DNA of 53,230 bases from Saccoglossus kowalevskii (Eukaryota; Hemichordata; Enteropneusta; Harrimaniidae): positions 444,508-497,737 of the forward strand of contig NW_003116447.1 in NCBI RefSeq assembly GCF_000003605.2, in the 5' to 3' direction. Both the position numbers and the translations under genes were made by a program. Under the pieces are notes generated by a model, which was not told the origin of the DNA, searched no databases, and saw nothing but the letters and a program-made list of their open reading frames with translations. Positions 712-48,360 of this stretch are shown here, piece by piece; positions within the stretch are counted from its first letter, which is position 1; each line of letters begins with the position of its first letter.

Positions 712-2932
712 ATTCTACTTAATATAAATATGATACATTTTAGCTTTAAGTGAAAAATTCCTTCCATATATTCAGTATGTAAGTATTTGTTACACAAAAT
801 ATATAATGATAGATCAAACAAGGCAGTGTGTTATGAATAGAAAGTTATTTTTTACCAGAAAGTGATGATTTTAACATTTTAACATTAACATCACCTGTTT
901 TATCAGTTCACAATGCCATTAAAAAAAAATGCATCACAATTGATTTTGGTTGGAAATGGTTTTAAGCACACATGCTTAAAGTGATACAGTTGTTGTGCTG
1001 TGTCATATCATATCAGACATGCAGTGCGCAACAACTATAGTGCTTTAAACAGTCTCACAAACTGCCAATCTTTGTTACTTGAAGTGTGTTTAACAGTCAT
1101 TAATGCACATATTGTGTCACCTACATTCATGATTGTTTGTTTTCCTTGTACTGAGGATATTGTAAGTATAAGGTATTTTTTTCATTAATCTTACTCGACA
1201 GGTGATTAAAATAAAATTTCAGCTTTGAAATATTATTTTACAAGAATTATGGAGAAATTGATTTTAAGGGATTTAATTTTGAATTGAGATATGATTTGGG
1301 TGATCTGGCAGTTAACAAATTAAACCCAGTGTTTAATAGTTATGGTGTATCTATCAGTTCAGTACTTAAGATATAATTATGTGAGGGTGATTTTGTCAGT
1401 GTACTGTTGCATATTCAGATTTGCTGCTTAAATGTTGCTTCTGGTCAGCACCTCCAGGGCACAACAACCCAGCTTTTAGCATATAATAGCATATTTTTTA
1501 TCATGCTATTGAATATTTTCATTATATTTTCACAAGTATTCATTCTGTATATAACCAAACAATATCTGCTTGTGCAATCTAGGCTATCGTGTGCATGACA
1601 TTTTAGCTAATGGGAATTACTGTACTTCCTGTCGTCGAGAAGTACCTGTTTACAAACTCCAGCTTCAGTTTCGTACCTAACATGTTGATTTCAGGCCTCC
1701 AGTTGCCTTTTCAAGTTTACAAATTGTTTGTCAAACTTTTTATGCACACCAGATAAAGCAGCACAAAAGGTAACCTCATGATTCTTTGGTGTCCATTCAT
1801 AGATTAGAAGACATATCCCAAGGGGTAACAAATCAAAGAAATCTGTCCCAATACTTTGCTGTAAAAGTTTTGTATTTTCTTTGTCCGCTTATTTTCCATA
1901 TTTTAGACAGAAAAAAAGTTTATTTATTTGATGTTTATATTGTAATGTGTTTTACTTACCGCATGTGTAAATAGTTTGTAGCAGTAGAAAATGTTTCTTG
2001 TTTTAAGTTGTTTGTCTTTGCACATGGATTGCAAGCTATATGAATAAAGTTTCATTTTATAGAAACCCTTTTGATATTTCACCCTGGGTGGCTTAACTTT
2101 CATGAAAAATCTGTTCAAGGTACACCCTGGGATTGATGAGCTGTGTGTGTGAATTTATGGTCAGTCTACTGAATGAGCTAAGCAGGTGGTTTGTAGTTGA
2201 AAGCATTTGTAGATGAATCAGATGCGATTTCTACAACTCATTCTTGGAGTTATGTAACAAATGTACACATTGACAACACACAGCCTGCGTTGGGGCTGCA
2301 TAATACACAGTTTTACTTTGTTAATCATGGTAATTCGGCACTAATGGTAATTAATGGCATGTTAACTACCATTAGTCCTCTTAACCTTTAACTATAGCTG
2401 TTATCGTCCAGTTGACACTTGAGAATTCCAACACAATCATTAGTTTCGAGGGGTTCTTAAAAATCATCACTTTTGAATATTTCCACAGTCCTTCCTTTCT
2501 TTCCATAATTAGGAAAATACAGGTTCTTTTCTAACTTTATTAATAAATCATGTCTAACATTCAAACCTTGCGTCATGTCGATGTCACCAGCAGTGATAGT
2601 ACATTGGCATTAGTTATGTAATCAATACATTTTACGTCAGAGCCATGGTTTTTGAATTTACAAATCCTAAAAAATATGCACCAATTGGTGTCTACTCGAG
2701 ACAACACGATTATAGCATGTTTAAAATTTGTGTTTATTACTCAAAACATACACAGGACTTGTTATGTAACATAAGATGACATAAGCATAGTTTTCTACCA
2801 TATTATTCTACCATAAATTGATTGTTTAAAAAGGGAAGTAAAAAAATGTTGGAATGTATGACGTCATGATTACAAATCTTTATTAAATTACAAATCAATT
2901 CTTAATTAACATTTAAAGCATTTCCGTCACGG

Positions 2933-2990
2933 TTACAAATCAGAAGTAGTTTTGGCCTCTGTATGTACAAATTCTCAATCTTGGTGAGTT
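2933..2990 (-). repeat. Duplicated copy of the gene A C-terminal coding segment
   Basis: About 58 bases repeat, with changes, the end of gene A's last exon at about 3112-3165 (shared GTATGTACAAATTC and GGTGAGTT on the plus strand). It lies in the gene A 3' UTR and would encode a similar ICN/ICTY-type tail, but beyond the stop codon. It looks like a local tandem duplication; gene B lacks it. Confidence 0.55.
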
Positions 2991-3106
2991 CGAATAATGG
3001 CACAAAGTTCTGTGACGATAGCACAGTATTGTGATGAACCATTACAATCATTGGTCGACATTGCTTGAATAAATGACACCATGTGTTTAAACTCAGGTAA
3101 AATCTA

Positions 3107-5864
3107 CTAATCAAAGTAATTTTTTCCTGTGTATGTACAAATTCCCGATCTCGGTGAGTTGAGAAACAGTTTCAAAACTCTTCCACGATGACCCTGATAT
3201 ACTGAACATGCTTTTGAACAGAAAAACTTCATCCCGCAGTCATCTCCATCTTCGTTGAAACTGTCCTCATCGCTGTCGTCGCTGTCATAGGGACTATCAT
3301 CTATGAAAAACATCGTTGATTTCTTATAACAATGCTCACACGGCATGACCAGCATCTCATTTCTCATCACGGGACGAATGATCTTGGTATTAGCTTTCTC
3401 TTGCTGTAGAGGGCGTTTTAGACGTCGTTCACCTATAATGGGAAGAAAATACGAAGAACGTGTTACACCGACTACAGAAACTGAGTTAATTTAAATAGGT
3501 GCATTCATTGTAAAGCTGGTTTAATAACTCACCTATATAATCTACAAATATCGATGTAGTGTAGTCTCCGCCATATTCATACATCATTCGTACGCCATCT
3601 TGAAGATACTGACGTAATGGAGTATCCAAAGGACCTATGTCGTCATCGTCCATAAGTCCATAAGTTGACGTCAGTGTCATTACGGGGTCAGGGTCATCAT
3701 CGGTGTCCTGAAAACAAAAGTAGATGTGGTAATTAATTATGACTTTTCTACTTTGTAATATAAACAGGCGACCTCTCCCCAAATCAAACTTTTAGGTTAG
3801 AATTTTTCCAGCAGATCACACAAAGTGGGAATACAATGTGGAGTGTTATTAGTCAATCAAAACTTACAGAGCGCCATCACACGACGTCTAAATCGGGTTT
3901 TCTGCACATCACACAAAGTGGGAATACAACTTTAAATATAGGAATAACAATGCGGTTTAGCGTAAAACGCATATCGATTAGGAGTGTGAATTGTTCCACA
4001 GAGCGCCACCACACGACGTGAAATCTACGTGTAACTGTTACTTGTGACATACCTTTAGGTTGGTAAATGCATTGGCAGCATATATATCCAAAGAACGTGC
4101 ATGACCAAAACAACATTGCATCCAGGTAAATCGAAGTAATAAATCAATGTCTTCAAACGATGCATCTAATGGAACGGCCAGATACAGTTCGAATTTCTCT
4201 GAGAATACAAAATAAATTACTTTAGTAGGAATCTGCCTTCGCCCGTGGAAAAACGTGAGAACCCTACGCCAAAACGAGCTCGGCGCTGAACTTGCCAGCG
4301 TTGGTTTCACAACTATACTTGTGAATATGCAGGCTTGCCGGAGTTGCGTTAGACAGTGTAAGCCATTGTTTTAACCATCTATGTGTACGGATCGGCACTC
4401 AGACTTGCAGTGCAGCGCTGTACGGTTTCATTCTAATACCTTCCAATGTAACACGACTATTTATTGCAATGTGATTTAGCAGCACGAAATGATAACATGA
4501 TGTTATTTCATAAATCTTGGGTGATTGATTTTTGTCGATGGTTCGATCGATTCCATAAAATTAATGTGAGACGATTCACACCTGCATATGCACAGGTATT
4601 GTTTATACCACACTGACGGAACATAAACGCCACCAATGCGCCATACTTACCAGCCCAGTTGACACTTCGAGCATGTAATATATACACATCAGATGGACCA
4701 CCATTTGTAAACCAACAGCCGTCAAGATGAGATAACTTATCACTGTTAGGAACGCTCTGATCACACCCACCACATTTCATCGATAGCGGAACCTTCCATG
4801 GATTACCCGACGGCTTAACTGGCTTAGGTGTACCATTATTATCTGCATGAGTATATAGGTGAATTATAGTGTCACATTATTGAAGCTCAGTACTAACTGT
4901 ACTTAGCTCTACGATAGTGTCAGGACGCTCCGGCCCTGGTAAAAAAAAAAACGATCCGGCCCCAAAACAGTTTGGTCGATCCGGCCCTGATATAATTTAT
5001 TCACGCAATTCCCCGTGGAAACACATTCAAACGAACCAAAAAAATGCGGACCCTGAGTGGAATTGAAATGTTGAGTGGAACTCAACAACCAGAAGCACAA
5101 CGTGCAAAGAAACAGTTTATTTGTATATTTACTGATAGACCAATAAAACTATTTTGTCTGCCTACATAAACTGCTACATTCTTTCCCTCTGTTGATTAAC
5201 GTTCTTAATTAATTTGTGACAATTTGTTGTGCATTCGAACCCTGACTGAAACGGATTGTATTAGATGCGTATTCAAGTTATCTGTTTGTGGGCCACGCAG
5301 GTCCACGTGAACAGTGTCAATCGCTCGGGCCATAAGGTGCTCACGATGCATGTACCACAATTATTTAACCAGAGAGTTTGTAGCTAATAACTGTAGATTT
5401 TAAATTGTAGTATATCCAGACTACTGACCTTGAATTTGATCATAGTTCTCTGCACGCTGCCCCTTGACCTTCAGAAGTCGCTTTACCAAATCGGGTTTGG
5501 AACCATTAACCGGGAGACCTTCCTTCTTAAGTTTAATTTTTAACTCTGAAACATTGAGATCTGATAACTTCAATCTTTCAACCAACTCATTTTTATTTCC
5601 ACCGATTGGAAGGTGACGCTTACGTAACATTTCCTTTAGTTGTTGAAGGTTTTTATATTTGTACTTGTCGGAGGATTTCATATCTGTAAACAACAAAAGT
5701 GAATGAACATAATAGTAAAGAAAACCACGCCAAAGACAACAGTATAGAATAGAAAATGCATCTCCTACTCGACTTGAAGAGAAAAATAACTTACTTGTGA
5801 ATCCTGGAGCCGGCATTTGTATAATGTGTCCCGTAGCTGTTGTATATTTCTGTACTTTAATCAT
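3107..5864 (-). CDS. Gene A: double-SAP, zinc-motif and pRiA4b ORF-3-like protein (387 aa)
   Basis: Six coding exons on the minus strand: 5864-5795, 5683-5429, 4842-4651, 4198-4053, 3707-3533 and 3432-3107. All have GT/AG borders and the phases add to one frame of 388 codons. Residues about 33-63 and 66-95 are two tandem SAP motifs (LKEMLRKRHLPIGG; ELKIKLKKEGLPVNG), a chromatin/DNA-binding fold. A C2HC zinc motif follows (Cys132, Cys135, His147, Cys151). Residues about 173-280 (VPLDASFEDIDLLLRFTWMQ; later RMMYEYGGDYTTS) resemble the bacterial plasmid pRiA4b ORF-3 family. An acidic Asp/Glu linker and a Cys-rich tail (CEHC ... FCSKAC) end the protein. The start is the first ATG after a 5' UTR intron. 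AATAAA lies at 2884-2879. The domain match is from memory; a DNA-associated role is inference. Confidence 0.8.
3800..4020 (-). repeat. Direct repeat pair carrying the GCGCCAYCACACGACGT box, in gene A intron
   Basis: Two copies of a block, each with ATCACACAAAGTGGGAATAC followed by CAGAGCGCCAYCACACGACGT, lie within the intron between coding exons 4 and 5 of gene A. The boxes are at 3867-3887 and 3999-4019. The corresponding gene B intron lacks this block, so it was inserted or duplicated after the paralogues split. Confidence 0.6.
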
Positions 5865-6143
5865 GTTTGTTTCTATAATAGAGATGAATAATATAAAACA
5901 ATGGTCTGACGCAGTACCATTGAGGTGATGGGATGCGTAAAATGAAATGAAACGTTGATCATTTGCGCTGAATTTTCAGAAATGAACAGATAAAAATGTC
6001 ACGAATTTCTCTCATACCATGGAACTACTGTGGTTTGTAGTGCCGTGGTAATGCCGTTTAACTAAAAATCCCATTTATACATGTATTGCAGCAAATTCCA
6101 CACATACGGCATGCCTATCAAATTTGTCTAACCATGTACTTAC

Positions 6144-6226
6144 CGATTTGCTGTTCGCAGAATTCAGGAGAATACTTTCTGAGTAAATTTTAGAATACAG
6201 CACTAAGAACTCAGCCACAATTATAC
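6144..6226 (-). other. Gene A 5' untranslated exon
   Basis: A consensus donor (GTAAGT, 6143-6138) lies about 110 bases inside the TATA box, and an acceptor stands just before the coding exon (exon resumes at 5872, eight bases upstream of the ATG). Gene B has the same arrangement. The 5' limit is estimated from TATA spacing. Confidence 0.5.
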
Positions 6227-6250
6227 GTTAATGTGGAAAAGGAGTCTCGT

Positions 6251-6395
6251 TTTATACCTTACTGTCTGGTGTGTGATGGCGCTCTGAATTTGAAGCGTCA
6301 ACGAAGTGAACCAATCAGAAAACGTCCTACCCGCATATGAACAACCAATCACTAATAAGAAGTCACCGGAAACGCATTAGACATCAAGCTTACTT
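6251..6395 (-). promoter_or_regulatory. Gene A promoter: two CCAAT boxes, GCGCCATCACAC box, TATA
   Basis: Read on the minus strand there are two ATTGG (inverted CCAAT) boxes at 6349-6345 and 6315-6311, then an AGAGCGCCATCACAC box at about 6286-6268, then TATAAA at 6256-6251. Order, orientation and rough spacing match the gene B promoter (13155-13287). Homology extends upstream through a TTTCCGGTGACTTCT segment, so the two promoters descend from one ancestor. Confidence 0.7.
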
Positions 6396-6399
6396 CCTT

Positions 6400-7857
6400 T
6401 ATTATTTTAAACAACCCTCCCTGTTTCTACTCCTCTAACCGAGAAATATGTACAGTTAATAGAAAATACGGTTAAAACTATATGATTCTTAATTTCAAAC
6501 ACGGGTACTAGAAGACTACTAGTCTACTAAATCACCCAGTAACCGTGTCTCGGAGTGTTGAAAATGGCACTCAAGAACAATTGGACGGAGTGAATTATTT
6601 CTGGGGCTACACTTTTATGCAATGAAAATGCGTTTCCTTTTGTATGTGGACAACTCTTACAGTAGTAATGTTGTCGGTCTGGAACGCCTATTGAATCAAT
6701 TTGCATTGTTCTAAATGGAGTTAAAAATCAGACTGTGTTTTGACAAGTGATGAGAGTGGTAAAAAGCACAAAAAACATTTAGCGAATCACGTGCGTAAAT
6801 CTTTTTTTGTATGAATATTTGAAGGTAAAATAGTGATAATCCTTCTGTATGAGTCCGAAATATGAGGTTTACACAGTAGCAAGGGGCATTAATGCCCACT
6901 ATATGATTTCTGTAAATGTGTACTAAAATACCCGCCAATTAAATTAGCTGGTAGAGATAAACTTAAACAATTTAGTTTTTTAGGTATTATATTTGATGCG
7001 TATACTAAAAATAAATGCGAATCGTTATAATTTTCCATTGTTATGAATTTCAATTGCAAAGTGTTGGGCATACAATTTTAAAAGTTCATTATTTTCGTTT
7101 AGTTCCGGTGAAGTCCGTTTCAACCAATGTCGAAGTAACGATATATACGTACTAGTATTTAAAAAGCGTTGAGTAGATTTCAATTTTCAATATTGCCAAG
7201 AAGAGTTGATCACATTTTTAAAACTCGAGCAACACAAACTTTTTAAATTGAACTCCAAGTTAGAACAAAGACAATAGAAAATGTCTTTGGTTAGAACCAC
7301 ATCTTGAATGCATTGAAAACATGGTATTCGGGCAGGCAAACTGCGTATGTCGCTTACGCTAAAAATTAAAACCGGCAGGCACTACACAGTCCCTAGATAT
7401 GCATTTCTGTGGTCTATACTATGTGGTATATATAAGACGAGTGCCATTTTTGTTTAATTTGTCCAGCTTTCCAAAAATAAAATAAACGAAACATATATTC
7501 ATGGGTATTACATACACAGCTAAATTTTTATGTGTTTCACCCGTCCGTGTATTTTACGTAATTGTTGGCAACGTTTGTACACCACGCTCTAAAATAGCGT
7601 TCATATTCACATGTAATGTCTCCTTTATCAATTGCTTTAGTGTGTATTTACATATTCATTTATTTTTTTATTACCTCGACCACACTTAGTATTTTTCGGC
7701 TGGTGCTGAATAAATATAATTATTATTATTAGAAAATATTTCGATAAAATAGTTATTTGACGAAACAGATCTTCAACGTACAGCAAAGATTATTTAGTCC
7801 AACATAAACCCCAGGCAAAAAAAGATGATCTTGTGCTGTTCCCAATAATAACAAAGC
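6400..7857. other. Intergenic stretch between gene A promoter and the tandem array
   Basis: No homology to genes A, B or C was noticed. A TATATATAAG run lies near 7430, followed by a 62-codon plus-strand ORF (7501-7689) and an AATAAA near 7709. The ORF's Phe/Cys/Ile-rich composition is not persuasive, so I do not call a gene. Confidence 0.4.
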
Positions 7858-7860
7858 GTT

Positions 7861-8510
7861 GACGCTCACCAGAATCACGCCTACGAAAACACTAAAGAGG
7901 TGTCACACGTGTATTGAAGAAGCAATAGATTTAATGATTGACAGTCATAATGTACGTTTCCGGGATGTGCACTAAGACCAAGCACACGTTGACGCTCACC
8001 AGAATCACGCCAACGAAAACACTAAAGAGGTGTCACACGTGTATTGAAAAAGCAATAGATTAAATGATTGACAGTCATACTGTGTGTTTCCGGGATGTGC
8101 ACTAAGACCAAGCACACGTTGACGCTCACCAGAATCACGCCAACGAAAACACTAAAGAGGTGTCACACGTGTATTGAAAAAGCAATAGATTTAATGATTG
8201 ACAGTCATACTGTGTGTTTCCGGGATGTGCACTAAGACCAAGCACACGTTGACGCTCACCAGAATCACGCCAACGAAAACACTAAAGAGGTGTCACACGT
8301 GTATTGAAGAAGCACTAGATTAAATGATTGACAGTCATACTGTGTGTTTCCGGGATGTGCACTAAGACCAAGCACACGTTGACGCTCACCAGAATCACGC
8401 CAACGAAAACACTAAAGAGGTGTCACACGTGTATTGAAAAAGCAATAGATTTAATGATTGACAGTCATACTGTGTGTTTCCGGGATGTGCACTAAGACCA
8501 AGCATATAAT
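7861..8510 (+). repeat. Tandem array, 5 copies of a 130 bp unit
   Basis: Five head-to-tail units start at 7861, 7991, 8121, 8251 and 8381 with constant spacing of 130 bases and very few differences. Each begins GACGCTCACCAGAATCACGC and contains ATTGACAGTCATACTGTGTG followed by TTTCCGGGATGTGC. Single diverged copies of these motifs occur near 10.99-11.10 kb, 12.16-12.29 kb and (inverted) 11.46-11.53 kb. Near identity suggests recent amplification. 130 is not divisible by three, so the array cannot encode one repeating peptide. Confidence 0.9.
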
Positions 8511-8709
8511 ATTTAATATTTGCTAGTTAAGTTCGAAACGTCTATTTTGAATAGTTACTTATAAGTTATAGTATAATTGCCTATTGTTATCATATTTTTC
8601 GGTCCGAGCAGCGTTAATTTTTATTTACTACTGCGGCGTACTGCCACGTCACTTTGATGGCACCTTGATACCGAAGAGTGGAGAGATTAATCACGTGATC
8701 ATATAAAAC

Positions 8710-9269
8710 ATGAGAATCCGTCAGTGCCGTGAGTGTGTGACTGATTACAGTGTTCCTCATGGTGAAACAGACGGACTTAAAATGCTCTATAAATTACTGA
8801 TTTTGTGTTTTCAGGACATTAAAGATGCCGAACGAATGATGTATGAATATATTAGTGACACATCAGTATCTACAGGTATTAATATAAGTAAGTAATTAAG
8901 TCAACTGTACGATGAATTAAAGTTAAAGCGATGGTCGTCGTTCAACGCGTTCGACTTTCGTGTAAACAAACAATAGATTTTCCCATAGACTATGGTTTTA
9001 CCCGCGCTGTGTTCGTCACATGAGACCTATGAATGTCTAGTACAATAGTTGTCACTTTGCAGTCAGTGTAACACGTTCTTCATATTGTCGTTTTAGGTGA
9101 TTGTCTTCCACGCTCTGTACAGCAGAAGAAGTCCAATGTCAAGAACATTCGTCGTCCCGTAATCGGAAATGAGATACATTTCATGTTGTGTGAGGATTGC
9201 TATAAACAATCGTACAACTGTCATCGTGGAAGAGTTTTGAAACCATTTGACAATAAAAGAATAATTTAA
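8710..9269 (+). CDS. Gene C: shortened third paralogue of A/B (116 aa predicted)
   Basis: Two exons are predicted, 8710-8887 and 9097-9269, joined in phase by GTAAGT and TTTTAG borders. From an internal former acceptor at 8814 the first exon resembles the start of B exon 4 (GACATTAAAGAT against GACACCGATGAC) and the 'RMMYEY' segment, with the middle deleted. The second exon matches the last exon of A/B (LCEDCY, then CHRGRVLKPF) but lacks the acidic linker. A TATAAAA-like motif lies just upstream (8702) and AATAAA at 9405-9410. It lacks SAP, the C2HC motif and most of the pRiA4b-like region. It could be a minimal gene, one exon set of a longer transcript, or a pseudogene whose frame is still open. 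Confidence 0.45.
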
Positions 9270-9317
9270 TTTCTGTTTGATGACTTCACTCATTCCAACA
9301 ATGCTTCGTTACTTAAC

Positions 9318-9345
9318 CAGGGAGCTGTAATGAGACAGCTCCCTG
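9318..9345. other. Perfect hairpin in gene C 3' region
   Basis: An 11 bp perfect stem (CAGGGAGCTGT) with a 6-base loop lies 49 bases after the gene C stop codon and before its AATAAA. The stem core resembles hairpins at 10302-10328 and 17305-17330. The position recalls the histone-type 3' stem-loop, but the sequence is different. Confidence 0.6.
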
Positions 9346-9410
9346 CTTATACAAATCATTGCCATTCATCTGTTCATATCTGTGGTTGCATGTATATTTT
9401 GAGTAATAAA

Positions 9411-10295
9411 CACTACCAAACTGTTCCTTTATTTGTTATGTCGAGTGGATTGAATTTGCGTATTTTGATTATTTATGAATGACTTGCACCATTTTAAAGC
9501 AGCTGTATCAACATACTATAGTCTGGTTAAACATGGAAGGTTTCTACCATCCATATCGGTCCTCATTATCGACATGAAATTTTCGGCACATTTAATATGG
9601 CGGTAGCAATGCCTGAAAAATATTACACTGTCACGTGACATATACAAAAAGGCGTTGATTTTAACGCGCACATTATGCCCGAATTATTGTGTTGAGCTTT
9701 TCAACAAATTGGTAGATGCTGAGTTGGCCACGCCCATATTTTAGAAACTACGTAAAACCACGTCCAAATCGTAACACGATGTCCGTAATTCGAACAATTC
9801 GGCATCTCGACTGACAGGGTCATGAACATGATGCGGACCTATACTGTCACAGTGGTTTGGTCGAGATTTGCCAAGAATGAAACCCATTAAGTACGAATAA
9901 GTTTCAATTACAGAACTTCACGTTTTGACAGTACAATTCGTTATTCTGTGTGATGTTTCTCCATGTGGAATTATGAGCTATTTACGCTGTGAAGTTCGGG
10001 TCATCGTCGTGTGAACATACTCAATTTTCTGTCCCTGTTCGCAAAACTAATAAAACAACGGCAAATGTTATAATTGGCCGGTTGGTTGTGAATATATAAT
10101 TTTGATGATAAAAACGATGTATTTTAAGACACTGAATGTGTCAATAAAACCAATAAGGCGATGTCTTAATGATGGGATTATTGATTGTCAATGATTTTGT
10201 TTTGCTTGTTTTTTTTTTATTAATTATATACACACCTGTTTTGGGTCACGTCACAGATGGTATAATTTCTGGAATACTTTCACCAGTTTATTCAC
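9411..10295. other. Intergenic stretch, no gene recognised
   Basis: CpG-containing DNA without a convincing ORF. GTCACGTGAC-type palindromes occur near 9640, and a T-run lies near 10210. Nothing here matches genes A or B. Confidence 0.4.
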
Positions 10296-10512
10296 TCACG
10301 ACATGGAGGTAGAAAAGAGACCTCCATGCTCACGACGAGCTTTGGCACAATAGATAGCATTTCGTTTCCAGACCGGGAATAAAGGAACTGGTGTAGGTTT
10401 AACAGTTTGTTGACGTTGAGGTTGGTAAAACGTGCTTTTTCAATTCACACGTTTATAGGTGCGATTCGAGACACCAGTATTTGAAACATACTGCTCTTTT
10501 GGCGGAGTAAAG
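10296..10512 (-). pseudogene. Exon-like minus-strand ORF with one in-frame TGA, family unknown
   Basis: After a good acceptor (CTCACAG) a 217-base frame reads hydrophilic, well-mixed sequence to a TGA at 10298-10296. It is broken once by an in-frame TGA at 10442-10440. Peptide character continues across the break (FTPPKEQYVSNTGVSNRTYK before, PTPVPLFPVWKRNAIYCAKA after), which suggests a terminal exon disabled by a point mutation. The true 3' end may instead be the first TGA. The last codons form the hairpin at 10302-10328. No family is recognised. Confidence 0.3.
10302..10328. other. Perfect hairpin, CATGGAGGT stem
   Basis: A 9 bp perfect stem (CATGGAGGT / ACCTCCATG) has a 9-base A-rich loop. 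The homologous hairpin at 17305-17330 has CATGGAGCT / AGCTCCATG. The differing base pair is changed on both arms, so pairing is kept. Confidence 0.6.
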
Positions 10513-10859
10513 CTGTGAGTAAAGATTAACACGTTATTAACAACCACGTTAAGCGGTTCCTTTAACTACAGTCTGACAGAGAAATTAACCGGTGTTGGTA
10601 GGCGGGTTTTGATGTCCAAAATTGTGATAACATAATATTTTCAATGCATATAATTAATTATTATTTCAATAATTACAACATTTCCTCTAAATAAACAAAA
10701 TATCGAGTCAAAACTTGAGTTAGGGTAAATGTCTGTGTATATCTCAATCATCCAAACTTTAAAATGTTACCCTCGAGCCCCAAAACATGGATACGAGTAA
10801 ACTGATAAGATCGGCGCATTTATTAAAACAAATATGTATTGTTACAAAAAGTTTAATAT

Positions 10860-11340
10860 TACCTCGGAAAATTAACGAGCATATATTTTTCGTGCGTGTA
10901 GAAACAAGGTTGAGAACATTAGTTATTTCGTTCAACGTCATTCCAACCAAATACGATGATCCTATCGAATGTAACATGCCATACATCAATCGCTGTCGCA
11001 CGGTGGCGCTCACCAAAAGTGGTGAATTGATAGACCATTAGGCGCAGTGATTAACAGTCATACTGGATGTTTCCGGGATATGCATCCGACCAAGTAGTGT
11101 AACTACATGTGTCTGTGAAGACAACAGGCGGGAAGAGGTGCATACGTAGTGTAACGTCTGTCAGACAACAGTCCGACCTGAGACTAGTACCTCGACTAGT
11201 AATCTACGAATAACAATGTATCTGATGAACTTGTTTTGTTCCGTACGCCCTCTATAAACAAATGTGGTTAATCTCAGGCCCATATACACTATGCAATCCC
11301 TCTTTAATAGAGGAAATGTGTGAGAATAATTAATCAAGAA
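10860..11340 (+). repeat. Dispersed repeat copy 1 (GGCGCTCACC ... TTTCCGGGAT family)
   Basis: This copy aligns by eye with 11985-12545. Shared blocks in order are a GAGAACA-type segment, CGCACGGTGGCGCTCACC (10997-11014), an ACAGTCATACTGGATG block with TTTCCGGGATATGCA (about 11052-11088), and a CCCTCTTTAATAGAGG mini-hairpin followed by TGTGTGAG near 11300-11325. The frame that is open in copy 2 is disrupted here. Confidence 0.6.
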
Positions 11341-11459
11341 ATCTTATCAGGTGTGTAACAACGCGATGATGGTAGAATGAATGGGAGTGTAAAGTGAATG
11401 GGTCTACGCCATGTATTCGAATACTAGGTCTGAAGGGGGTTTACTTTTGTCCTCTTATC

Positions 11460-11535
11460 CCGGAAACATACATTATAGTTGTAAATCAATACATCTCTCG
11501 ATCAACCAACACACGTGCAATAACATATCAAAACA
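11460..11535 (-). repeat. Inverted, diverged fragment of the same repeat family
   Basis: Read on the minus strand it has CACGTGTGTTGG, ATTGATTT and a TATGTTTCCGGGATAAG block in the order seen in the 130 bp array unit. It is the most diverged copy recognised. Confidence 0.45.
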
Positions 11536-11984
11536 TTTTGCGCGAAAAATACTGTCTAAAGTGGAAACAATCCTTACCAACATTTGTCAAGAACAATGAA
11601 GTCACCCTAATCACAAAAACATTAATTAAGAATTAATGTTCTTCAAGTAATACTTTATGTGCAGTATTAATCTCAATAAATCTCATAGAACAATAAATAT
11701 ATCATGAATTATATATAAAGTTAATAAAAATAATAGTACAGCAACATGTGTTCCTCAATTATAGAATAATATAATAACAAGAATAGTGTAAAAGCTCCTA
11801 AACAAGCAATCTGTCGGCTGATATAGTTCCGCTCTTTTAGATGCAAATAAGAAAGGAATATCAAATCAATCAGTCCAGCCATTGTTAAGAAACAAATTGA
11901 GAATGAGGATCCCGAAGATTTGAAACGATGTAGTGTGATGTTGCCATAGGTTTGTGAAACCATACCTCTTCTGTAAAATATATG
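11536..11984. other. A+T-rich spacer between repeat copies
   Basis: Low-complexity A+T-rich DNA with overlapping short ORFs on both strands, none convincing. No further match to the neighbouring repeat was recognised. Confidence 0.4.
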
Positions 11985-12545
11985 CTAAAATGTACCTGTT
12001 TATAATAATTTCCGCGTGTGTAAAAACAAAGATGAGAACACAGGACAAAAGTTACTCAGTTCAAAGTACATTCCAGTGAAATACAATGGTTCTGTACTGT
12101 GTACAATCACAGTCCCTCTGACTGTGGTACAATATAACATGCACTAATTCAATGGCTGTCACAAGATGGCGATCACCGAAAGAGGAACTCATACGTCTGT
12201 CGATGTATCCATGGATGCACTGATTGACAGTCATACGGTATGTTTCCGGGATATTCATCAGACCAAGCACACCGTGAGAGAAAGAGTGTGTGACGTGTTT
12301 GTGAAGACAAAGAAGGGAGAGACGCGCACGTTTAACGTCTGTCGGTTAAAATGAAGTAATTGACACCATTATTTCCGACCACTGTACTTTACGGACGGTT
12401 TTTGTTTTACAACCCCCCCCCCCATAAACGAATGTGTTCTCGGTGTGTATTTTTTTCGTATCCTCTAAAGTTTCAATAAATATATCATACAGTTCCTCCT
12501 TCAAAGAGGGAGTGTGTGAGGAATATTATTCGGGAAGTGTATCCA
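11985..12545 (+). repeat. Dispersed repeat copy 2, with an open frame at 12166-12354
   Basis: This is the best-preserved copy. It includes an open frame from ATG 12166 to TGA 12354 (62 aa) containing LIDSHTVCFRDIHQTKHTVR and ending VKTKKGETRTFNVCRLK. The array units read IDSHTVCFRDVH in the same frame, and most base differences between the two fall at third codon positions. That suggests the family derives from a coding sequence. Whether this copy is expressed cannot be told. Confidence 0.45.
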
Positions 12546-12593
12546 TCAACTCACATGCAAATACCTCTTTATCGTTTTCACTGGCAAAATTTT

Positions 12594-12760
12594 GGTGAGC
12601 GCCACCATGCGACAACAATTGATTTACTGCCGTGTGAACACGACCATCGTATTTGGTTTTGAATTTGTGCTGAACTGAATAACTTTTGACCATAGACTCT
12701 ACAGAGTACACGCTTATGTTCTCATCCTTTTTTTACGTGCCCGTCCTTTTGTACTCATAT
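12594..12760 (-). repeat. Dispersed repeat copy 3, inverted fragment
   Basis: The plus strand here (GGTGAGCGCCACCATGCGAC, then a CATCGTATTTGGTTTTGAA block) matches the minus strand of copy 1, so the orientation is opposite. It ends in unrelated sequence near 12760. Confidence 0.5.
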
Positions 12761-12805
12761 TGCCAAGCACGTCATCCCGCATTGCATGTCGAGCAAATGC
12801 CGGAA

Positions 12806-12826
12806 TAAAGCGCCATCACACGACGT
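12806..12826 (-). promoter_or_regulatory. Isolated copy of the GCGCCATCACACGACGT box
   Basis: AAAGCGCCATCACACGACGT occurs about 440 bases upstream of the box in the gene B promoter, without flanking CCAAT or TATA motifs that I can see. A regulatory role is inferred only from the repetition of the motif. Confidence 0.35.
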
Positions 12827-13154
12827 ATTTCAGTAATGTATCGCTGGTGCAAATACAATATCGCAAATTATTAGGCGATGAACGATTTCTTTGTGCCGGA
12901 TCCTGGGTTTTCACATTTTAAATGGTAAACAATTAAAACCGTTGTTTAAGTCCCAGATATAATCCACTGAATCCAAATGTTACGCCGAGTACCTTTTCTA
13001 GCACACCCATGTTTGGGAAAAACAAGACACAATTATTGTCCATGTATTAAAGAATAAGAATCATAAAGTGTACTAATAGTTTGTATTAACTGTATTCATT
13101 CCTTCGCTGTAGACACAGGGAAAACCACAGTATGGGCAATAAAGAAGGTGTTCA

Positions 13155-13290
13155 CCTTGATGTCTAACGAGTTTCCGGTGACTTCTCGTCAGTGATTGGT
13201 TGTCCACACTCGGGAAGAACCGTTTCTGATTGGTTCACATTGCAAGCTTAGAGCGCCATCACACGCCAGTCAGTAAGTGTATATAAAGAG
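13155..13290 (+). promoter_or_regulatory. Gene B promoter: two CCAAT boxes, GCGCCATCACAC box, TATA
   Basis: ATTGG motifs lie at 13195-13199 and 13229-13233, GAGCGCCATCACACGCC at 13251-13267 and TATATAAA at 13280-13287. The cassette matches the gene A promoter in order and orientation, including the upstream TTTCCGGTGACTTCTCG stretch. Confidence 0.75.
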
Positions 13291-13311
13291 AACCACGCTG
13301 CGCACTAAAGT

Positions 13312-13397
13312 ATTAATAAGGGTTTAATTATCAGTGCTCGTATTCTACAAATTTACTTTGAAGGTATTCTCTTGAGAAATCTGTGAGGACTGTACCG
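13312..13397 (+). other. Gene B 5' untranslated exon
   Basis: The exon begins about 30 bases after TATA (estimate) and ends at a GTAAGT donor (13398). The next exon opens at 13666, eight bases before the ATG, after a TTTTTGCAG acceptor. The structure mirrors gene A. Confidence 0.55.
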
Positions 13398-13673
13398 GTA
13401 AGTATGCAGTAAAATCATAGACCATGTTTTTAAGACGCTCCAGCTGATGCACTCATTCTATGAACTTGACATTCTTTTTCTTATAGCGTAGTAATTGTTT
13501 TACTATAAATACACATTATGAACTGAACTGTGTCACAGACTTTTGTTGTCATATGATCACTCCAGCAAAATTGACGATGATACTCCGGTAGAAAGACCTT
13601 GTCCATTTAGTTTAAGCACATCGTTAACGATTACTATATAATCAAAAATCTACATGTTTTTGCAGAGAAAAGA

Positions 13674-15793
13674 ATGATTAAAATACAAAAGGAAACAATA
13701 GCTACCGAAGAAATGCTGACATCCGAGCTCACAGGTGTGTTGTTCATATATTTGAGTCAAATAATAGTGTTTCGCTATTTTGTTCACATAGTCATTGATT
13801 CCTCCACATTTGTTCATAGATTTATATAGGATATACATTGTATGTGTGACGTGAACGTATTTAATGTTGTGTACATGTAGCGTAGGAGAAACATCGTTCT
13901 TACGGGGATTCACTGCTAACGTATTTAACCATATTTCACCCCAATGCACTATTGCAGGTAATGCAGGTACATCTATTGCAGTAAAGCCAGCGGGTAATCC
14001 ATGGAAGGTTCCGCTATCGATGAAATGTAGTGGCTGTCGTCAGAGCGTACCTAACAGTGATAAGTTATCTCATCTTGACGAATGTTGGTTTAACAATGAT
14101 GGTCCATCTGATGTTTATTTATTAAATGCTCGAAGTGTCTATTGGGCTGGTAAGTGTGTGGCACTGGTGACTGTAATTACTATATGAATGTGCGGAGATT
14201 ATCGATATACATAAACAGAAGCTGATTATATTCTATTGTATTGTGTATGCAAATACGTCTTCTAAAATTGTATAAAATAAACAATTATGTAAAGATCGAA
14301 ATGCGGAAAAAATAAGCTTTCAGTAAAAATGGAAGAAAGGTCGACATTTTTATCGACTTAAAAAATGTCATACCGCCCTATTGTTAAGTTGGGGACTACG
14401 GTTAAAGGCGCCGGCGTACGTCAGTTCCGACTAAGCACCATTTCACCATTGTTTTCTTATAACATGTCTTCAACTTCGCATTCACTTATCCGTCTCAACA
14501 AATATAAAATAACAATACATTTGTATTGTTTGTTACAGAGAAGTTTGAATTGTATCTGGCCGTTCCATTAGATGCATCGTTTGAAGACATTGATTTATTA
14601 CTTCGATTTACCTGGATGCAATGTTGTTTTGGTCATGCACGCTCTTTTGACGTATATGCTGCTGATGCATTTACGAACTTAAAGGTATGTATGAATCTAA
14701 ACATTATTAGTAATATGACGTCACAAGAAATACTATCACGATCACACGCAACGGTGAGCTGGGGTGTACGCTGTGTATTGTGAATACATTTTTTGCCAGT
14801 GGCGCCATATTGACTCAACAATAATGTGAAATAATTCACAGCTACGTTCCGAACCACTTTAAAGCTATAACAATGAGCTTTATTCAAGCATGCTTGAATG
14901 ATACTGTGTATTTGTAGCAAAATTCTGTGAAGAATGCGGGTACAGTATACACGCACAACGTTCGATGCGCGCTCTGTAGTCTGGTTCCCTGCCCTATTTC
15001 AACGCTGAGGGCGGTGAAAACTTGGACAGGGAACCAGACTACGCGCTCTGGTGATACCTGCTGGAGTGCGCGAGATAACAGTGTCCATGACCAATTACAC
15101 AATCAATTTTTGTCACATGGTTAAATCGTTACCTCATGTTTTGATTACTAATGTTAATTTGATATTGATATTGTTTTCAGGACACCGATGACGACCCTGA
15201 CCCTGTAATGACACTGACGACAGCATATGGACTTATGGTCGGTGACGACATAGGTCCAATAGATACTCCATTACGTCAGTATCTTCAAGATGGCGTACGA
15301 ATGACGTATGACTATGGCGGCAACTACACTACATCGATATTTGTAGATTATATAGGTGAGTTATTAAACCAGCTTTACAATGAATGCACAGATTTACATT
15401 TACTAAGTATTTGTAGTCGATGTAACCCGCTTTTCGTATTCTCTTCCAATTTTAGGTGAACGACGTCTAAAACGCCCTCTACAACAAGAGAAGGCCAATG
15501 TCAAAATCATTCGTCCCTTGATAAGAAATGAGATGCTTGTCATGCCATGTGCACATTGTTATCGGAAATCAACGATGTTTTTCATGGATGATGGTCCTTA
15601 CGACAGCGACGAAAGTGATGACGATAATGATGATAATGTCCGTGAAGAAGATGACGACGACTGCGGGATGAAGTTTTTTTGTTCAAAAGCTTGTTCAATA
15701 TCTCAGGGTCATCGTGGAAGAGTTTTGAAACCGTTTCTCAATTCACCGAGATCAGGAATTTGTACATACAGAGGAAAGAATTACTTCGATTGA
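13674..15793 (+). CDS. Gene B: zinc-motif and pRiA4b ORF-3-like protein without SAP (303 aa)
   Basis: Five coding exons: 13674-13734, 13958-14149, 14539-14684, 15181-15355 and 15456-15793. Exons 2, 3 and 4 have exactly the lengths of gene A exons 3, 4 and 5 (192, 146, 175). It carries the C2HC motif (Cys44, Cys47, His59, Cys63), the pRiA4b ORF-3-like region (about residues 85-192), a longer acidic linker with runs of Asp, and the CAHC ... FCSKAC tail. The exon encoding two SAP motifs in A is absent: the first coding exon splices in phase straight to the zinc exon. A second acceptor nine bases inside exon 2 (at 13967) would remove three residues. AATAAA is at 15979-15984. Exon identity with A is high while introns look unrelated. 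Confidence 0.8.
14977..15041. mobile_element. 65 bp TIR element with 9 bp direct repeats, in gene B intron 3
   Basis: The perfect 15 bp inverted ends are TAGTCTGGTTCCCTG (14977-14991) and CAGGGAACCAGACTA (15027-15041). They are flanked by perfect direct repeats CGCGCTCTG at 14968-14976 and 15042-15050. A 9 bp target-site duplication is usual for Mutator-like (MULE) transposons, so this is probably a very small non-autonomous MULE; the class is inferred. Confidence 0.7.
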
Positions 15794-16100
15794 TAGATTT
15801 TACCAAATTTTATACCGATGACGTCATGTATGCTAACAATGTCGGCTATGATTGTAATTGTTCAGCAGAATTCTGTGTTATCAGTACAAATTTGTTACGT
15901 TGAGTACATGTGGCCATTATTGCAGGAATACAAAATATGTACCATTAGTGTGACTATTATGAAACGTACAATATGAGAAATAAATATTACAGATTAAACA
16001 TGCTTTCTCTGTGTTTTTTATGTAAAAGTTATATTGATTGGACTGCATTTCCTTATTATAAATCCCCATATCAACCCCTATTTACGGCATTTTTTTGGCA

Positions 16101-18260: not shown

Positions 18261-18367
18261 CGCCCTTTAATTAACTTATCCTAATGTACTCTAACTTATA
18301 TTTATTATATTTTCTTGCAGACTCTAAATATGAAATAAGACTCAATATCAGATTGGCCGATGTAGTG

Positions 18368-19492
18368 ATGTCATCACCAAACTTCTCAGCTGTGACGTCA
18401 TCTACCAACAAAAAACGCTACTTGATCTTATCGGCGTTTATGCTTTTCTCTATTGCATGTTGTATCATATTGTCTTATAACATGGCCGATATTATTGGTG
18501 TGGTGCCATGGAAACGTACTAGTGTTTTACCTGCTAATAGAAACAACACCTTAGGCAGTGAAGACAAATTTTACATCGCGAAAAATACCACTGCATCGTC
18601 GTTAATTTTAAACACCACTGTAGCTTCAAATATATCACGAGATGCCGTGCCAAGTAACAGTACATATACCAATAAAGCTAAGATAGAAGACGTTGCATAT
18701 TATGGCCAAGGAGAAGCACCCTTCTTCAAAGACACCGTCGTACCAAACGTTGCTCATTTTATTTGGTTCAGCAACCATACGTTTCGATTCTACCATCTCC
18801 TAAGCATACTTAGCGCGCACAAAATCATGAAAGCTGATCGCATTTTATTTCACACTGACTCTGAACCTGAGGGAGCATACTGGGACGAACTGAAACAAAA
18901 GGTACCCGAACTAGAAATAATTCACCGTGACCCACCATTAACCATCTTTAACTTAACTTTGAATGCGAGATGGCACCAGGCAGATATTGCGAGTCTCGAA
19001 ATTCTCATGGAACATGGCGGTGTGTACATGGACCCAGATATATTTGTAGTACAGCCATTGGATTATTTACGTCATTACGAGTGCGTCATGGGACGGGAAA
19101 TCCCCGGTTTTATCGCTAAGGGAATCATCTTTGCAAATAAAGATTCCCAGTTTCTTCGGCTTTATTACGATGGTTACAGGCGATACGATCGCTCGTGTTG
19201 GAATTGCAATTCTTTAAGATATCCTAATTATTTGGCGGCAAAATACCCCCGACTTATCCACGTTGAAGAGCAGAGTCTGATTTATCCTCCCGGAAGTAGA
19301 TGGAGAGCGATGTTTTATGGGAATTTCCGGTGGTGGGTTGATAATTTTACTGTCCATATATGGATTAGAAACTTTGAACGACGTGATAAGAATGTCGTCA
19401 TCTCGCCGCAGACGATAAAGACAATGACCAGTGCTTTCGGTGAGATGTGTAGATTCATATACTATGACGAACAACCCAACAAAGACACGTGA
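18368..19492 (+). CDS. DXD-motif Golgi glycosyltransferase, single coding exon (374 aa)
   Basis: A type II membrane enzyme of the Gly_transf_sug (DXD sugar-binding) superfamily. It has a short N-tail, one membrane anchor at about residues 18-38 (YLILSAFMLFSIACCIILSY), a Ser/Thr/Asn stem with several N-glycosylation sequons, then the catalytic domain. Family marks are PNVAHFIWFS, a WHQADIASLEILMEHGGVYM segment and the metal/nucleotide-sugar motif DPD just after it. The frame is open upstream to 18284, but splicing at 18320 places the first usable ATG at 18368. AATAAA lies at 19778. The donor, acceptor and product cannot be deduced from sequence. Related enzymes include alpha-1,4-GalT/GlcNAcT types and many uncharacterised invertebrate paralogues. 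Confidence 0.85.
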   Translation: MSSPNFSAVTSSTNKKRYLILSAFMLFSIACCIILSYNMADIIGVVPWKRTSVLPANRNNTLGSEDKFYIAKNTTASSLILNTTVASNISRDAVPSNSTYTNKAKIEDVAYYGQGEAPFFKDTVVPNVAHFIWFSNHTFRFYHLLSILSAHKIMKADRILFHTDSEPEGAYWDELKQKVPELEIIHRDPPLTIFNLTLNARWHQADIASLEILMEHGGVYMDPDIFVVQPLDYLRHYECVMGREIPGFIAKGIIFANKDSQFLRLYYDGYRRYDRSCWNCNSLRYPNYLAAKYPRLIHVEEQSLIYPPGSRWRAMFYGNFRWWVDNFTVHIWIRNFERRDKNVVISPQTIKTMTSAFGEMCRFIYYDEQPNKDT

Positions 19493-43300: not shown

Positions 43301-46300
43301 TGGGATGGTTGTTGAGACTCCCCTGAACAGTGTAACAAGATTAGCCCTACGTGTGTAACATATGTAAATTTGATTGTTCAGGATTACTAAAAAAGTTGAT
43401 TTTGTGTTGTTTTCGCGAATTTTCACTGGCTCAACTGGCATTTCACAGAAGCGCACTCAGAGCCCATAGAAATGCATGTACAGTGGTGCACGTCTTAGCA
43501 ATGGGGAATAACTTGTGACATAGCTTCGCCCCGGTGGAGTGGTATGAGACATGAAAATCAAGCTGAAAACAGTTACATGTGATTAGTATACAAATTAGGT
43601 ACTCAAACGGCTCAGACTATTGAAGACTGTTGTCAGTCATTTATCTACAATGAGCAGGCATTTACTGAGTCAAAATGGAACAATTATTAAAACATGATGG
43701 AAACAATAATATAATATAATAAGTATAATAATGCTGATTAGTAACATGCAAACAATATAAGAAACTTTTTTTTAAATAAAGTTTTAACCAATTTATATAA
43801 ATTAAATATAAAGATATACAAAAATGTGATAACACTATTTATGCAAATAAGCTAATTAAAATGCATACTGGGAGGTCAATTCAGTTATGTAAATATAAAG
43901 ATATACAAAAATGTGATAACACTATTTATGCAATTAAGCTAATTATAATGCATACTGGTAGGTCAATCCAGTTATGTAAATATAAAGATATAGAAAAAAT
44001 GTGCTAACACTATTTATGCAAATAAGCTGATTAAAATGCATACTGGTAGGTCAATTCAGTTATGTAAATATAAATATAAAGATATCCAAAAATGTGATAA
44101 CACTATTTATGCAAATAAGCTAATTAAAATGCATACTGGGAGGTCAATTCAGTTATGTAAATATAAAGATATACAAAAATGTGATAACACTATTTATGCA
44201 ATTAAGCTAATTATAATGCATACTGGTAGGTCAATCCAGTTATGTAAATATAAAGACATAGAAAAAATGTGCTAACACTATTTATGCAAATAAGCTGATT
44301 AAAATGCATACTGGTAGGTCAATTCAGTTATGTAAATATTAAGATATAGAAAAAAATGTACTAACACTATGCAAATAAGCTGATTAAAATGCATACTGGT
44401 AGGTCAATTCAGTTATGTAAATATAAAGATTTACAAAGAATGTGCTAACACTATTTATGCAAATAAGATGATTAAAATGCATACTGGTAGGTCAATTCAG
44501 TTATGTAAATGTAAAGATATACAAAAAATGTGCTAACACTATTTATGCAATTAAGCTAATTATAATGCATACTGGTAGGTCAATCCAGTTATGAAACTAC
44601 ACATGTAGTACAAATTGTACCAAGTTCAATCCATTTATTAAAGCAAACAAAACATGTTCAAGGTAGTTAAATTATTATGCAAATAAGCTAATTATATGTA
44701 CAAATTAATTCAAAACAATGAAACAGTCAAGAAACAGCTAAAAATTAGCAAATGTAAATTAGGCAATTAATATGCATTGATTTAAACCCAAACTTAATCA
44801 AATATGTGCATTAGCCCAGAGCATATATGCATCAAGTCTCATCAAAACCCAACATACACACACAGACATACACATACACATACAGACACACAACTGCAAA
44901 GACTCATCGTGTGCTTCGCAAACTGGAGTCAAAAATCAGACGAAAACAATAACAGAATAGAGAGAGAAAGATTTATTATAAGAGTAAAACACATTTGTTT
45001 TATTAAGAGCACATGTATAAGTTCTCAAAATAAAACGTGTACTGTTATATTTTTTACAAAAATTTCCACAAATTTCAATAAGGAAAGCGGCAAAATGTTT
45101 GATTCAAACCATGAAATTCTTCGCATTCATTATTTACCAGCTGACAGTATATAAATTTTAAATGTCACCTTTTACAAAATAAATATGCATAACATTTCCC
45201 ATATTTTTTGCATTGCCCTGAACTAATACATAGAAAGACAAGTTTACTGTCATGTAAAAACTCACCACACAATGACTCTGAACACAAAATATTCCACTAA
45301 AATTTCAATAAAAATCTCAATTCAAGTTATGTAATGCTATACAAATTAGATGAAGACCATCAGGGAAATATGTGTTATTGGTTACATACACATTGTATTA
45401 TATTGTGTTTTTTTATGTTCTACACATAGTTATTCAATATAGATGTTAACGATATTCATTGATAAACTTACCAACCACTTACAAGTGGTTTCCCATACTA
45501 TGAAATTAATTCCGTATACCATTATTCAATCTGACCACTGTTTGTTTTGGGGTTTTATTTGCTATTTTCATCTTTTAGCTATAATGGTACATAGATTTTG
45601 CAATTAATTTTCATTTTATTTGTAATTTTTTCACTTGTATATTTTTTTGAAAAAACAGAAAGGTTGTAAAAAAGTTTGCTTTTTGAACATCTTTTTTTCT
45701 TCTACCAAATTCTTGGTGGAACATTTTTTAAGTACTTTACAATAATTCCTCTGACAATTTTTGTTCAATTTGGATATAATTTTCCAGGTTTTTTAGGTTC
45801 TGATCAACATTTTTGAATTTCAAAAGAAAAAAATTCACAAAAATTCACCTTCGCGTTTAAATGGATAAAACTTACCTGTTTTAATATTTTTCCACATGCA
45901 GGCCAACCAAATCCTTGTGCAATGCCATTCACAAACCAGAGTAAAGCATATGCAGATATGGCTTCAAAAGCGGGAAATACTAAATTCGCAACACCACAGA
46001 AGAACAGCCCAAAAGAAAACATTAATCTTGGACTCAGTCTATCAACGAACACACCGCTAATAAACTTGCTGATGCCATAAGCGAACGTTTGACTGCTTAT
46101 AATCAGACCTGTGTAACATAAAAAATGAATTAGTTGTTACTTTACACAAAATGTGACTTTACTGTATTTTTGTTAGTGTTTCAATTATAGAATATATCGA
46201 GAGGAGGTCAGAACAAAAAGAAATAAAATTTTCGAAATTTACACAACTACCAGTACACCAAAGATTCAAGAAATGTCATTACATTTAAAAACTTTGTATT

Positions 46301-48012: not shown

Positions 48013-48360
48013 TATTTGTTGTTTTTTACCGATACTGTATATCAGTTCACACTGGATTTGTGAATAAGAACGGCTGTACGGAAGTGGAAAGCGTCCTGCA
48101 CCTTGGCAGAGAAAGTAACGATCGGTTACTTAACACACTCTTGCAAGTGACAGCATCTTCGTGTTTTCCGCCATAGCATACGACTGCCGCTGGTGATACC
48201 GGCTTCACAGTGCAGTGTGACCTCAACGCTGACCTGTTGACCTCAGTGATCAGCACGTTGTCACCACTTCCGGCAAATCAGCTGATCAACTGCAGCGTGA
48301 GGGCCAGGATTCGCTCCGCACATTATTGCTTTATCTGATTGCAAGAATGAGTAAATTGTA
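48013..48360. promoter_or_regulatory. Bidirectional SLC37A4 / TRDMT1 promoter
   Basis: The two start codons are 348 bases apart on opposite strands. The interval and its flanks contain several CpGs in otherwise CpG-poor DNA. ETS-type sites CGGAAGTG (48079-48086) and ACTTCCGG (48266-48273) are common in divergent housekeeping promoters. No TATA box is evident. Confidence 0.7.

Follow-up and report, generated by a model that had tools for sequence, protein, structure and literature searches.

Saccoglossus kowalevskii, a hemichordate, carries two related genes, here called A and B, in a 53,230-nucleotide stretch of contig NW_003116447.1 (positions 444,508 to 497,737; this whole stretch is the window, and coordinates of A and B refer to it). 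Gene A (3107..5864, minus strand) codes for 387 amino acids (aa) and gene B (13674..15793, plus strand) for 303. Both are spliced models whose exon joins are based on splice signals and homology, and every intron in them is GT-AG. The six coding exons of A (5864-5795, 5683-5429, 4842-4651, 4198-4053, 3707-3533 and 3432-3107) comprise a first exon, a tandem SAP exon, a C2HC-finger exon and three exons for a predicted beta-grasp core and a C-terminal cysteine cluster. Exon 2 (5429..5683) holds two SAP domains, and exon 3 (4651..4842) holds the finger, CX2CX11HX3C, with the sequence HLDGC. Exon 4 (4053..4198) carries the LRFTWMQCCFGH core, the counterpart of LRDIWLECCGH in the microbial protein described below. 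The YEYGGDYTTS segment of exon 5 (3533..3707) corresponds to microbial YEYDFGTTTE, and exon 6 (3107..3432) runs RNE...CX2C...CX3C... to the end NSPRSGICTYTG. Gene B consists of the exons of A minus the SAP exon (13674-13734, 13958-14149, 14539-14684, 15181-15355 and 15456-15793).

The three internal exons common to A and B match to the base in length (192, 146 and 175 bases in each gene), and the spliced models thereby confirm the opposite-strand paralogues with matched internal exon lengths proposed in the initial annotation. Over the last four exons the two genes share 166 of 192, 135 of 146, 161 of 175 and 285 of 326 bases. Starting at the residues NPW, the proteins agree in 230 of 266 residues, and the ratio of nonsynonymous to synonymous changes (dN/dS) is 0.24; across all 299 aligned codons it is 0.26 (simple Nei-Gojobori counts). 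Because of these ratios, both A and B look as if they have been kept under selection as coding genes. Inverted repeats I1 to I4 of the window coincide with the exons of A and B (I1 including a short intron) and I5 with an upstream region; thus the pair is, on this sequence evidence, a head-to-head inverted duplication.

Relatives of the proteins were sought with composite probes in a collection of 84,980 prokaryotic genomes. At least 588 stretches matched; 571 of these proved to be related to the probes, and the best 80 were kept. Two viral contigs also matched, and one protein was read per locus (82 loci in total). A profile built from 75 of these proteins (195-262 aa, the two from viral contigs included; seven were left out for length) matched B with 67.1 bits (E = 1.5e-18 with Z set to 20000) and A with 62.0 bits, from the finger through the last residues, whereas the highest score among 4000 shuffles of A and B was 7.6 bits. 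Profile-profile comparison (hhalign) of five animal copies, introduced below, with 66 microbial proteins gave prob 99.7 and E = 1.7e-25; when A and B alone represented the animal, prob was 99.3. An alignment of two animal, eight prokaryotic and one viral-contig rows has 29 invariant columns, with 25-28% identity to B; the invariant columns include the finger ligands C, C, H and C as well as LR..W..CC.GH, Y...TT, RN, C..C and NSPR.G.C.Y.G. On these matches, the C-terminal 250 or so residues of A and B are almost certainly homologous, end to end, to this microbial protein.

The microbial protein is about 225 aa long and occurs here and there across bacterial and archaeal phyla. It has a C2HC finger at the N terminus, then a pRiA4b ORF-3-like beta-grasp core, and a zinc-type cysteine cluster at the C terminus. 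The finger has the same 20-residue spacing, CX2CX11HX3C, in 73 of the 82 proteins; the other nine look shortened by a contig end or by the chosen start. The finger is therefore native to the microbial protein, and not a module fused in as had been proposed. The cysteine cluster ending NSPRxGxCxYxG is also part of the microbial protein. As for the core, PF07929 matches 65 of 66 microbial proteins at E up to 0.1 (four of ten listed singly exceed the cut-off), and models of two prokaryotic members have an MM3350-like beta-grasp fold. A core of the pRiA4b ORF-3-like kind is thus borne out through real prokaryotic intermediates. NCBIfam gave no name for the two microbial members scanned. Separately, the cysteine cluster of one member (L064, 3809-4459) resembles B-box zinc fingers (zf-B_box, E = 4.9e-4); zf-B_box was matched at E up to 0.1 in 4 of 66 microbial members, and B-box structures were also matched in structure searches.

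A six-frame search of the species' own 572-Mb assembly with the core of B found 18 matching exons, those of A and B among them, from which five stretches were taken for reading. Contig C4588 (11 kb) contains two nearly identical copies (C4588a and C4588b), C2076 contains one, and C999 a more distant one; remnants lie elsewhere. The C2076 model was completed by hand from exon 4 on and needs one GC donor. Identity to A is 81% for B, 87% for C4588b, 55% for C2076 and 44% for C999, and matching the five animal copies to the microbial profile gives scores of 55 to 79 bits. On these sequences, A and B are best explained as members of an animal gene family that has been duplicated several times.

The clear animal-side addition to the microbial protein is the exon with two SAP domains. 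In A, the expected SAP motif was found by Pfam scan in two stretches (PF02037, 68.1 bits against a cut-off of 23.9, E = 4.3e-19). The tandem SAP exon had appeared to be a feature of one copy; it is present in all four other genes (C4588a, C4588b, C2076 and C999), with PF02037 at E = 5.9e-18, 5.2e-11 and 1.2e-11 (42-65 bits) in C4588b, C2076 and C999, respectively. B is the exception, the only one of the six family genes that lacks it: tblastn of A found no SAP-like match in the stretch of B, and Pfam at its cut-offs found nothing in B. Most likely the ancestral animal gene would have carried the SAP exon, and after several duplications B would have lost it or never had it. These results put a widespread microbial family within a family of animal genes that carry DNA-binding modules; the link is a full-length match, which the Pfam scan did not pick up.

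Where the animal genes came from was examined with a maximum-likelihood tree of 75 microbial-set rows and five animal rows, whose bootstrap had not settled according to the program's own note. All animal rows fall together (100/100), the stem that leads to them measures 3.57 changes per column, and the remainder mixes bacterial and archaeal phyla. The tree singles out no donor. Instead of lateral transfer, the genes may be an old inheritance from the archaeal or bacterial ancestor of eukaryotes, lost in many lineages. We regard this as a serious possibility, somewhat short of an even chance. Several archaeal groups have members, a Lokiarchaeote (L006) among them, and the animal copies are very diverged with old duplicates among them, such as C999. 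In addition, two giant-virus proteins in BFVD, A0A3G4ZQD0 (Barrevirus, E = 1.3e-14) and A0A3G5ACM7 (Hyperionvirus, E = 9.7e-14), have the same fold and match the model of L003 over its full length with template modelling (TM) scores of 0.71 and 0.77; by these matches, relatives are carried by large viruses as well. However, the animal rows group neither with the Lokiarchaeote nor with any other row. Old inheritance concerns origin and is compatible with the explanation of A and B as members of a duplicated animal family.

A different source, a mobile element, had been suggested by the initial annotation. In that case a transposon would have supplied the core, as an accessory gene of the pRiA4b ORF-3 kind, and the core would have kept a role in DNA transactions. 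IS1096 TnpR is presumably one such passenger. Some ISAzba1-group transposons encode pRiA4_Orf3-like proteins, according to PMC3942029. We surveyed the neighbour genes of the 82 loci by crude calling of open reading frames (ORFs) in flanks of up to 4 kb (3 kb where the locus was one of the two viral ones), which were often ended by contig ends. The commonest neighbour family recurs in five loci, and those listed have the look of everyday chromosomal genes or of frames open by chance. With no family recurring in more than 5 of the 82 loci, nothing in these flanks points to a transposon passenger, and transposases are not regular neighbours in them. The animal copies are also far from the other rows of the tree. 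A domesticated mobile-element passenger is therefore highly improbable. What stands of the earlier interpretation is the pRiA4b-like core and the SAP motif in A; the finger fusion, the mobile-element source and the single-copy SAP do not.

The finger suggests a possible function. In PDB searches with the microbial profile and with a mixed profile, the first match to the finger stretch was the RAD18 ubiquitin-binding finger (E = 0.003 and 0.0037, respectively). We take CX2CX11HX3C to be the spacing of RAD18-type UBZ4 fingers, and the Asp of HxDxC, two residues before the last Cys, to be a ubiquitin contact in them. All five animal rows have Asp at this position, as against 2 of 73 microbial rows, whose most frequent residue there is Lys (21/73). 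A microbial zinc finger may have become ubiquitin-binding, and the single aspartate offers a sharp test of this idea.

In the models, the overall shape of the microbial protein appears to be like that of SNAPC3, a factor that helps to start small nuclear RNA (snRNA) genes. In a rival explanation, A and B would also work like SNAPC3, as transcription factors that recognise a promoter element upstream of TATA boxes, perhaps a 17-bp element that precedes A and B themselves. Upstream of both genes lie, in conserved order, two ATTGG boxes, AGAGCGCCATCACAC and a TATA-like box. The putative promoter of A (6250..6283, minus strand) contains a 17-bp element at 6283-6267 (three mismatches), then a TATA-like box at 6256-6250; that of B (13252..13287, plus strand) contains the element at 13252-13268 (two mismatches), then a TATA-like box at 13280-13287. 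The 17-bp element, AGCGCCATCACACGACG, occurs in the family loci 2, 4, 8 and 10 times at up to 0, 1, 2 and 3 mismatches, respectively (47,267 readable bases); its copies (AGCGCCAYCACACGAYG) lie at 3870, 4002, 6283, 12809 and 13252 of the window and in L091, L093, L094 and L095. At up to three mismatches it was absent from 73,917 readable control bases and from 39,629 bases of the remaining window, so that among the stretches examined it was found only in family loci (10 in 47 kb vs. 0 in 113.5 kb). Some copies are found inside an intron of A or past the end of a gene. Because of these copies, because this predicted target may have spread with the gene copies, and because the control stretches were not chosen as promoters, a regulatory role of the element is only a suggestion.

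Other results also stand against such a factor. Comparison with the human SNAPC3 sequence was no better than with shuffles (score 20.2; 9 of 200 shuffles scored higher, the best 29.9). SNAPC3 did not appear at E up to 10 in PDB searches with the microbial, animal-only or mixed profiles, nor among the first 50 Foldseek matches. The Pfam family PF12251 (cut-off 23.8 bits) had no match in A, B, C999, C2076 or C4588b, and matched one of 66 microbial members, the bacterial L080 (3809-4528), in the zinc region below threshold (19.4 bits). The ligands of SNAPC3 zinc finger ZF-1 are Cys221, His313, Cys317 and His319 according to PMC9758055, which also describes SNAPC3 alone as a poor DNA binder. These ligands have no full counterpart in the family: the YDFGTTT or YGGDYTTS segment, whose equivalence is read from the order of elements, has no Cys or His. 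We consider it unlikely that A and B are SNAPC3-like factors of this kind. A wider relationship has better prospects and is still somewhat doubtful: SNAPC3 and the microbial finger/beta-grasp/zinc protein may share an ancestor, the SAP-fused animal proteins being a second branch that may sit upstream of TATA boxes, those of its own genes included.

Taken as a whole, our best explanation is an animal family built on a microbial scaffold, joined to a SAP exon and acting as a nuclear adaptor, and we find it about as probable as its negation. We propose more tentatively, leaning rather against it than for it, that the mechanism is that of a nuclear adaptor held on DNA or chromatin. The SAP pair would hold A-type proteins on AT-rich DNA, the finger with its HLDxC aspartate would bind ubiquitin on chromatin, and the SNAPC3-like beta-grasp/zinc core would contact other proteins and possibly DNA. 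Lacking SAP, B would serve as a soluble partner or competitor of A. We infer the nuclear location, the DNA and ubiquitin binding and this division of labour.

Several observations weigh against this explanation. PF07929 (gathering cut-off 26.6 bits) has no match at E up to 10 in A, B, C999, C2076 or C4588b, none in the core of B alone and none exon by exon across the species' own genome; because of this, the direct Pfam check suggested for the core fails, and only the intermediates rescue the link. The beta-grasp fold of A and B is predicted from modelled prokaryotic relatives. Of the six Cys columns at the microbial C terminus, two are missing from A and B, where an acidic insert is found. 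RAD18 was not listed at E up to 10 in PDB for the animal-only profile A6 or for A alone. The Pfam family zf_UBZ (cut-off 25.6 bits) is sub-threshold in four of the five animal copies (best 13.9) and is not listed for C2076 at E up to 10. Finally, the finger Asp counts as one event, because the animal rows are paralogues with a shared history.

Pieces of further copies lie near the genes and elsewhere in the genome. The reduced copy C placed between A and B by the initial annotation is real, but it is only a remnant of the last two exons (8812..9269, plus strand): tblastn matched 9105-9212 (53-56% identity, E = 2e-5 to 4e-5) and, weakly, 8812-8871 (E = 0.74). A second remnant, the end of a last exon, lies just downstream of A (2943..3020, minus strand; 58-62%, E = 4.6e-4 and 5.1e-5) and forms inverted repeat I6 with the last exon of B. 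Broken copies are also found elsewhere, the clearest at L093 (1352-1471, minus strand, E = 2.6e-4) and L095 (2283-3333, minus strand, E = 1.6e-13), with weaker fragments in L093 at 745-813 (minus) and 3125-3160 (plus). Because of these broken remnants, duplication seems to make the family both grow and decay in this genome. Between A and B there is also a tandem array of five 130-bp units (7857-8504, 97% matches), with diverged single relatives at 11016-11084 and 12189-12257 (plus) and 11457-11517 (minus); inverted repeats I7 to I11 are relatives of this repeat.

Elsewhere in the window, a long single frame (18275-19492, plus strand) contains a DXD glycosyltransferase domain (PF04488, E = 8.8e-8). 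Two minus-strand frames, 45804-46136 (MFS_1, E = 1.3e-11) and 47632-48129 (no Pfam match at E up to 0.01), belong to a probable membrane transporter gene, possibly one for a sugar-phosphate exchanger.

Compared with known systems, A, B and their microbial relatives reach the same broad family as PF07929 PRiA4_ORF3 (MM3350, PDB 2i1s) and differ from it in the N-terminal finger, the C-terminal Cys cluster and the NSPRxGxCxYxG end. The ISAzba1-group passengers fall in the same broad PF07929 group, according to PMC3942029, whereas no recurring transposon neighbourhood accompanies the family in the 82 loci. With the RAD18-type UBZ4 finger, the animal copies have in common the spacing and the HLDxC aspartate; the animal finger differs in scoring under the Pfam UBZ cut-off and in being attached to a beta-grasp core. 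SAP-domain proteins such as THO1 and the MKL/myocardin-like proteins share the tandem SAP motif with A; THO1 and MKL1 were found in the PDB search, and their chains leave the rest of A unmatched. SNAPC3/SNAP50, a core subunit of the snRNA-activating protein complex that assembles with SNAPC1 and SNAPC4 on a PSE, has no significant sequence match to the family and other ZF-1 ligands, and the NSPRxGxCxYxG end was not found in its residues 179-411, the part compared by sequence. If the likeness in fold to SNAPC3 is true kinship, the family would give a prokaryotic lead for the origin of the snRNA transcription machinery, for which we know of no earlier one, and the microbial proteins would be simple systems for the role of the scaffold before eukaryotes.

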